Shown here piece by piece: positions 61,198 through 63,923 of a stretch of 64,000 nt of DNA (positions are counted from its first letter, which is position 1; the number at the start of each line of letters is the position of its first letter). Both the position numbers and the translations under genes were made by a program. The stretch is from positions 1 through 64,000 of the forward strand of contig JAGXAB010000021.1 of NCBI GenBank assembly GCA_018971775.1, read 5' to 3'. Origin of the DNA: Cyanobacteria bacterium REEB67. GTDB lineage: Bacteria; Cyanobacteriota; Vampirovibrionia; Obscuribacterales; Obscuribacteraceae. Under the pieces are notes generated by a model. The model was not told the origin of the DNA. It made no database searches and saw only the letters and a list, made by a program, of their open reading frames with translations.

Positions 61198-63063
61198 TTG
61201 GACGACGAACTTACCATCAAACATCCCGCTTCGGAAGGCACGCATCACCAGGGTCCCTGGTGGAAAGTCATGTGCCTGACCGGCGTCGATTACTTTTCAA
61301 CCCTCGGATATCAGCCCGGTATAGCCTTTCTGGCGGCCGGCGTGCTCTCACCTATTGCCACGGCGATCCTTGTTTTACTGACTCTGGTTGGTGCCTTGCC
61401 GGTTTATCACCAGGTGGCGCGCTCTTCTCCGTATGGTCAGGGTAGTCTGGCCATGCTCGAAGAGCTCTTGCCAAAATGGAAGGGCAAAACGCTTGTGCTT
61501 TGCCTGCTGGGATTTGCCGCCACCGACTTTATCATCACGATCACGCTTTCAGCCGCTGACGCCGCCGCCCACATTGTCAACAATGAAATGCTCAATCATA
61601 TTTTGCCTTTCGGGCAAATCTGGCTGACTCTGATGCTCGTACTTATCCTAGGTGGAATCTTTCTGCTCGGCTTCAAAGAAGCAATCGGCGTCTCTTTTGC
61701 CCTGGTCACGCTCTATCTAGGCTTGAACGTGGTCGTAGTCGGCAAAGCCATCATAGTGCTTTTTGAGCATCCCGAATATTTTTCGAACTGGACGAATGCA
61801 CTTTATACCGAGCATCATTCCATAGCCAAAATGATCGGCGTTTCGTGTCTTCTCTTTCCCAAGCTAGCTCTTGGCTTGTCCGGCTTTGAGACCGGTGTGG
61901 CCGTCATGCCCCTGGTCCAAGGAGACGAGAGCGATACCTTGATCAGACCGCGTGGTCGTATTCGAAAAACACAACATTTGCTTACCGTAGCCGCCTTGAT
62001 CATGAGCGTCTTTTTGATCGGCTCGGCAATGACTACAACTTTGATTATTCCGAAAAAAGAATTTCTTGAAGGCGGACTGGCAAACGGTAGGGCCCTATCC
62101 TATCTCTGCCACCATCTGCTGGGCCATGAGCTCGGCACTGTCTACGACTTGAGCTCGATCCTGATCTTGTGGTTTGCCGGAGCTTCGGCAATGGCCGGCT
62201 TGCTCAATCTCGTCCCCCGCTACCTGCCTAGATACGGTATGGCGCCGGAATGGGCCCGAGCCATGCGACCACTGGTGATCTTTTTGACGGCGGTGGCGCT
62301 GGCGGTGACAATCATCTTCAAGGCAAACGTGGACGCTCAGGGCGGTGCCTACGCCACCGGTGTGCTGGTGCTGATTACATCGGCGGCCCTGGCCGTCACC
62401 TTGAAATTCTGGAAGCGCCCATGGCGTCGTCTGATGTTCGCCTTGATCACATTGATTTTTGCCTACACTACTGTCGTCAACGTCTATGAGCGACCGGATG
62501 GTCTACACATCGCCTGCTTTTTCATCAGCGCCATTTTGCTCACATCCCTGGTATCGCGCGCGATGCGTTCGACCGAATTGAGAGTTTTAAAAGTGGAGCT
62601 CGACGCTACCTGCCGAGAATTTATCCACGAGGACGACTCCGGCCAGATCCGCATAGTCGCCCACAGGCCGGGCGGCACCGATTACGATCAAAAAGAGCTG
62701 GAAGCCTGCGAAACCCATAACCTTGTCCCCGACCATTTGATCTTCCTGGAAGTAAGTCTCGGCGACGCCTCGGAATTTAACTCCGAAACTTTGAAAGTGG
62801 AAGGCGAGCGCGTCGGCAGATACCGTGTCATGCGCTGCACGTCGCCGGCCATCCCTAATGCCATCGCCGCTATCCTGCTCAATATCAGAGACCAGACAGG
62901 CAAACATCCACATGTCTATCTCGGCTGGACTGAAGGCAACCCGGTCTTGTACGTGATCAAATTTATCTTCCTCGGCGAAGGCGAAACGGCACCGGTCACC
63001 CGCGAAATCTTGCGCGAAGTGGAAAGCGATCCCAAAAAACGGCCCCGCGTCCACGTCGGCTAA
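61198..63063 (+). CDS. APC-family amino acid permease
   Basis: The start region [21 protein letters not shown] and eleven to twelve helices match APC transporters with a long C-terminal cytoplasmic domain of about 150 residues (from [19 protein letters not shown] on). The Gly-rich helix 1 (GYQPGIAF) forms the substrate site. Amino acid or similar uptake is likely; potassium carriers of the KUP group look similar but have other signatures. TTG start without a strong ribosome binding site. Divergent from the FIST gene. Confidence 0.9.
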
Positions 63064-63172: not shown

Positions 63173-63220
63173 CATTTTACCCGGGTAATATTGACAAAGA
63201 CATTTTACCCGGGTAATATT
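63173..63220. promoter_or_regulatory. Two-copy palindromic operator CATTTTACCCGGGTAATATT
   Basis: The 20-base sequence occurs identically at 63173-63192 and 63201-63220, 28 bases apart. Each contains the perfect 12-base palindrome TTACCCGGGTAA (63177-63188 and 63205-63216). The first copy ends at the -35 box and the second covers the promoter spacer and -10, the classic position for a repressor. Confidence 0.88.
63191..63219 (+). promoter_or_regulatory. Sigma-70 type promoter of the DUF2239 gene
   Basis: A perfect -35 TTGACA (63191-63196) is followed after 17 bases by TAATAT (63214-63219). Transcription would begin near 63226, about 47 bases before the preferred start codon. Confidence 0.75.
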
Positions 63221-63272
63221 CAAGCAGCGATGGTCAAAGACGCCCCAGGCGAGTCCAAGAATGAGGAACAAG

Positions 63273-63923
63273 ATGGAATTATCCGGCAAAAATACGTGCA
63301 CGGCCTTCGCCGGCACGAGAGAAGTAGCCCACGGCAGCTATGAAGAAGTAGTACTCGAAAGTAAACGACTCTTTGACCGCGGCGAGAAAACAAACATTTT
63401 GATTTTCGACGATGACACGGCCCAGCAAAGGGACGCCGACCTTGGACGCAGCTTGCCAGAGCTTGAGCGCTGGCTGTCCTTCGTACGCAAAACAGCCGCA
63501 CAAGCAACGATTGCAGCACGCGATGAAGATCCCACTGAAGCCGGTGAAGAAAGAGCACAATCAGTCGTAAAACCGGGTCGGCCAAAATTGGGAGTGGTAT
63601 CGCGGGAAGTGACACTCCTGCCCAGACACTGGCAGTGGCTCAATGCCCAACCGGGCGGAGCCTCGGTCGCACTTCGCAAACTGGTGGAGGCAGCAAAACG
63701 AGACACCACCGGTAAGGAGCAAAAACGTCTGGCTCAAGAAGCGACTTACCGATTTATGTCGGCGATGGCCGGTAACGAAGCTGGCTTCGAAGAAGCAAGC
63801 CGCGCTCTATTTGCCGGTAAGCGCTCGCGCTTTGCCGAATTGACCGAACACTGGCCCGCGGACGTCAGCAAATATTTGCAGAAGTTGGCCGTGGCAGCAT
63901 TTGACGCAACCCAAAAAGAGTAG
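63273..63923 (+). CDS. DUF2239 protein with ribbon-helix-helix-like segment
   Basis: The 216-residue protein matches DUF2239: TAFAGTREVAHG at the N-terminus, ILIFDDDTA, and GRPKLGVVSREVTLLPRHW in the middle. Residues 102-145 read like a ribbon-helix-helix unit: strand VSREVTLL, helix A (PRHWQWLNAQP) and helix B (ASVALRKLVEAAKR) preceded by a Gly-Gly turn. The family function is unknown. ATG 63273 has GAGGA 4 bases upstream; ATG 63261 is also in frame. Two palindromes in its promoter suggest that it represses itself. Confidence 0.85.
   Translation: MELSGKNTCTAFAGTREVAHGSYEEVVLESKRLFDRGEKTNILIFDDDTAQQRDADLGRSLPELERWLSFVRKTAAQATIAARDEDPTEAGEERAQSVVKPGRPKLGVVSREVTLLPRHWQWLNAQPGGASVALRKLVEAAKRDTTGKEQKRLAQEATYRFMSAMAGNEAGFEEASRALFAGKRSRFAELTEHWPADVSKYLQKLAVAAFDATQKE

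Follow-up and report, generated by a model that had tools for sequence, protein, structure and literature searches.

Paired palindromes over the promoter of a DUF2239 gene point to a probable self-repressing transcription factor

The 64-kb window, by which we mean the whole stretch of DNA that was analysed, carries a DUF2239 gene at 63261..63923 on the forward strand, which encodes 220 amino acids and matches PF09998 with E = 7.5e-67. The match reached 225 bits (cut-off 25) and ran over the complete profile (1-182 of 182) at residues 12-210, and this full-length match above the gathering score placed the protein in DUF2239, a Pfam family with no described function. The true start may be the in-frame ATG at 63273, which follows GAGGAAC and would give a protein of 216 amino acids. 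Promoter search found a -35 hexamer TTGACA at 63191..63196 and a -10 hexamer TAATAT at 63214..63219, both on the forward strand and separated by a 17-bp spacer, and the combination scored 10/12 as a sigma70-type promoter. An Rfam scan over the DUF2239 leader found no known RNA element. About 200 bp downstream of the gene lies a DUF2383 gene, for which the neighbourhood comparison gave no sign of linkage. On the upstream side, 61198-63063 encodes a 621-aa membrane transporter-like protein that looks like an amino-acid/potassium permease and had no Pfam or NCBIfam match at E<=0.1.

Two identical copies of the 20-mer CATTTTACCCGGGTAATATT are arranged over this promoter, in a register of 28 bp and with no strand assigned to either. 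Putative operator site 1 (63173..63192, with the palindrome TTACCCGGGTAA at 63177-63188) touches the -35 element from upstream, and putative operator site 2 (63201..63220, palindrome at 63205-63216) overlaps the -10 element, which lies within its right arm. Re-reading of the coordinates thus bore out the initial annotation, which had described two identical 20-base palindromic sites, 28 bp apart, flanking and overlapping TTGACA-17-TAATAT. Exact TTACCCGGGTAA was present in two copies in the 6.75-Mb Obscuribacterales genome, both of them at DUF2239, while the expectation from composition was about 0.4 copies per genome. When up to 3 mismatches to the symmetrical 18-mer ATWTTAYCCGGRTAAWAT were allowed, further genomic places were found, none with fewer than 2 mismatches, and the same search returned no convincing second regulon target in this genome. 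From this pattern of matches, the regulon here therefore appears to be the DUF2239 gene alone. The search for other copies of the site to define a regulon, as the annotation had proposed, led to one locus in this genome, and trans targets were found in other genomes.

For conservation analysis, DUF2239 loci were drawn from GTDB genomes, whole-genome searches and plasmids, and 76 upstream regions were left after similarity thinning. Sites were counted as TWAYCCGGRTWA with up to 2 mismatches, with dinucleotide shuffles as the control. At least one site was found in 70 of the 76 non-redundant regions (shuffle mean 6.0) and at least two sites in 54 (shuffle mean 0.25, maximum 1), with a consensus that was itself drawn from the counted sequences, so the count was repeated with the motif of the initial annotation unchanged and with Obscuribacterales left out. 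This recount gave at least one site in 47 of 66 regions against 0.47 in shuffles, and at least two in 27 of 66 against 0. The sites were present in Cyanobacteriota, Pseudomonadota (alpha, beta and gamma), Bacillota and Deinococcota, and also in Myxococcota and one deltaproteobacterial MAG ("Deltaproteobacteria"), so the palindrome that had been predicted upstream of DUF2239 homologs was recovered in at least five phyla. Spacing was 26-30 bp in 45 of the 54 paired regions, with a mode of 28 and a minor class of 19-20. The consensus over the 45 aligned pairs was TTTTAYCCGGRTAATATTGAC ... TTTTAYCCGGRTAWAAT, and it had a fixed geometry of site 1, then TTGac, a spacer of 17, and TAWAAT inside the right arm of site 2, which means that the operator overlaps the gene's own promoter and that this overlap is conserved among orthologs. 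No site was found in the 200 bp upstream of three DUF2239 genes (L061, L062 and L063), and some genomes of Lysobacteraceae had one site only. A second, divergent DUF2239 copy (L143, G177:C4:466157) had no site, and the normal copy of the same genome has one. The loci with sites 19-20 bp apart (L023, L026, L027, L031, L035 and L068) came from Limnohabitans and relatives and from an Acinetobacter plasmid.

Co-occurrence of the operator pairs with the gene was then analysed. DUF2239 was present in 69 of the 150 Burkholderiaceae genomes examined. The broad pair pattern gave many chance matches in this family, and a stricter operator-grade pattern was used, which was derived from the loci already collected and fixed before the second test on 289 Alphaproteobacteria. 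Operator-grade pairs were found in 25/69 Burkholderiaceae genomes with DUF2239 and 0/81 without it, and in 8/21 alphaproteobacterial genomes with DUF2239 and 0/268 without it (p = 2e-10 in both tests, values that overstate independence, the genomes being related; Burkholderiaceae and Alphaproteobacteria are separate clades). The operator was thus restricted to genomes that bear the gene. Seven of the eight alphaproteobacterial pairs were close upstream of DUF2239, and the eighth (Bradyrhizobium, G074) was about 0.9 kb upstream and adjoins a GIY-YIG gene. Within the family to which the window belongs, exact pairs were confined to DUF2239, and relatives without DUF2239 had single scattered copies, as chance predicts. 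Operator-like pairs by an ssb-like gene (G060) and a TetR-type gene (G061) were poor matches and were set aside.

A small GIY-YIG-like gene recurred beside the sites in other bacteria. In Variovorax the pair is followed by this gene, with DUF2239 and a MATE pump next in line; on plasmids of Azospirillum and Phyllobacterium the sites lie between GIY-YIG and DUF2239, which run divergently; and in Alicyclobacillus and one Bacillota MAG DUF2239 comes first and GIY-YIG after it. The pair also occurred in trans before the GIY-YIG gene in four Burkholderiaceae genomes (L136-L139), with one copy broken, and there a dienelactone-hydrolase-like gene runs divergently from it; in L136, L137 and L138 the pair lies at about 1550-1620, between the two genes. 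One GIY-YIG relative (L152) had no operator site. NCBI gives the partner proteins the name GIY-YIG, and they have the GVY motif and the FEVLE glutamate, but their match to PF01541 stays below the Pfam cut-off (E = 0.027), and several members have a degenerate YIG half. In four more Burkholderiaceae genomes (L135, L140, L141 and L098) the pair stands before an RPE65-type carotenoid oxygenase gene, for example at L135:1515-1562, and DUF2239 is elsewhere in all four; in other Burkholderiaceae the oxygenase gene is directly 3' of DUF2239. In comparative genomics a regulon typically shows itself in this way, by genes that are neighbours in one species and share an operator in another.

The N-terminal alpha/beta domain of the protein (residues 12-87, 63294..63521, forward strand) was modelled by AlphaFold2 with pLDDT mostly above 80 and the elements E12-17, E20-26, H27-39, E46-50 and H65-87. 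It had no fold match, and we infer that it is a candidate signal-binding domain. Most of the invariant columns of a 41-sequence alignment fell into residues 104-148 (63570..63704, forward strand), with the consensus GRPKLGVVxREVTLLPRHWxWLxxQPGGASVALRKLVExA, and this is the candidate DNA-binding region; its GRPK resembles a minor-groove-binding motif. The initial annotation had seen strand-helix-turn-helix spacing at residues 102-145 and compared it with ribbon-helix-helix (RHH) repressors. The helix-turn-helix part agreed with the AlphaFold2 monomer, which has helices at 121-128 and 133-170 joined by a tight turn, but the strand did not, and no confident strand was modelled at residues 115-120. 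Like RHH repressors (RHH_1, MetJ, Arc, CopG), DUF2239 has two helices that come after a conserved stretch of hydrophobic-polar character, REVTLLP, and its palindromic site is compact. Unlike them, it showed no sequence-profile similarity to RHH families: the isolated conserved region matched DUF2239 alone in Pfam and no RHH family, and hhalign against five RHH_1 proteins of the same genome gave 9.3, with the best shuffles at 10-15. Helix A is also 4-5 residues shorter than in the RHH proteins of the same genome. Foldseek against the PDB found no match with the whole model or a fragment, querying PDB sequences with the family profile gave none, and the BFVD hits of the full model were insignificant, among them a 53-residue viral protein whose match (probability 0.66, E = 2.6) was too weak for any use. 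A monomer model is no ground for excluding RHH, because RHH strands pair between monomers, forming the two-stranded sheet that an RHH dimer puts into the major groove. On balance the RHH assignment, which found no profile or fold match, is a somewhat doubtful one.

Taken together, DUF2239 is probably a self-repressing one-component transcription factor of its own promoter, and from sequence evidence we put the probability at roughly 0.8. A DUF2239 dimer, as the palindrome suggests, would bind each TWAYCCGGRTWA site, and two sites about 28 bp apart would cover the upstream edge of the -35 and the -10 element. Occupied sites would exclude RNA polymerase and keep expression low, and a signal, possibly a ligand and perhaps sensed by the N-terminal domain, would release repression. 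In other bacteria DUF2239 would also control co-transcribed or distant genes, such as MATE/MFS pumps, the small GIY-YIG-like protein and the carotenoid oxygenase. Autorepressors that bind tandem palindromes over their own promoter are well known among the regulators of efflux genes, for example in the TetR, MarR or RHH families. DUF2239 is similar to them in the two palindromes over -35 and -10 before its gene, in the presence of the pair only where the gene is, and in the efflux gene that often adjoins; the difference is that it matches none of these families, its sole Pfam family being DUF2239. Self-repression through TTACCCGGGTAA, as annotated initially, is thus well supported across genomes by an operator that is conserved, promoter-overlapping and gene-restricted, and the RHH part of that reading was not supported. 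No recognised DNA-binding domain was found in DUF2239 by Pfam, profile comparison or Foldseek, which counts against a repressor.

The same lack of a recognised DNA-binding fold would fit another explanation, in which DUF2239 is a target and a separate, widely shared transcription factor would recognise TTAYCCGGRTAA and regulate DUF2239 along with the GIY-YIG, carotenoid oxygenase and efflux genes, and the site is indeed found before these other genes too. But operator-grade pairs were absent from all 81 Burkholderiaceae and 268 alphaproteobacterial genomes without the gene, and across the lineages DUF2239 has no constant neighbour. The window's genome has the operator but lacks the GIY-YIG partner, and on this ground the GIY-YIG protein was ruled out as the regulator. 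We therefore consider a separate factor unlikely.

Conservation alone cannot tell repression from activation, but the overlap with -35 and -10 favours repression, and the geometry suits steric repression. Site 1, touching the upstream edge of the -35, could be an activator position, so DUF2239 might bind the sites and activate, or regulate itself positively. However, the consensus places the -10 element under site 2, and the promoter has near-consensus hexamers with a 17-bp spacer and would need no activator, which leaves activation very improbable. A further possibility is that the palindromes do not act as operators and are chance repeats or just part of an ordinary promoter, and TAATATTGACA-like promoter hexamers do overlap them. 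The shuffle-controlled counts refuted this origin, with the CCGG core and palindrome kept in 70 of 76 homologs against 6 in shuffles and pairs in 54 against 0.25, and its probability is negligible. DUF2239 as the autorepressor remains our preferred reading.

A literature search found no paper that names DUF2239 or COG3644, and among the matches listed the motif letters were not presented as a bacterial regulator site in the text available from those sources. With autorepression, an uncharacterised family in at least five phyla gains a concrete and directly testable function and a defined operator, and also a first target-gene list and a link to efflux pumps. MATE genes were found downstream of DUF2239 in Myxococcota, Bacillota, alpha and beta, and MFS genes in Comamonadaceae and Lysobacteraceae, and in many loci the gap between DUF2239 and the MATE/MFS gene was a few bases only, so one may reasonably guess that DUF2239 acts in induced efflux or detoxification. 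More broadly, and tentatively, DUF2239 could be a new bacterial repressor family with an undescribed DNA-binding fold, neither RHH nor recognised HTH, which would recognise TTAYCCGGRTAA in at least five phyla and control an exchangeable detoxification cargo of MATE/MFS pumps, carotenoid oxygenase and GIY-YIG-like protein. Once DUF2239 is proven to be a repressor, the operator could be used for finding DUF2239 regulons. Among the other neighbours, a gene annotated as DUF1330 follows DUF2239 in Paenibacillus and a Rhizobium plasmid (L072 and L073), and the Paenibacillus DUF2239 locus has tet(L) just upstream.
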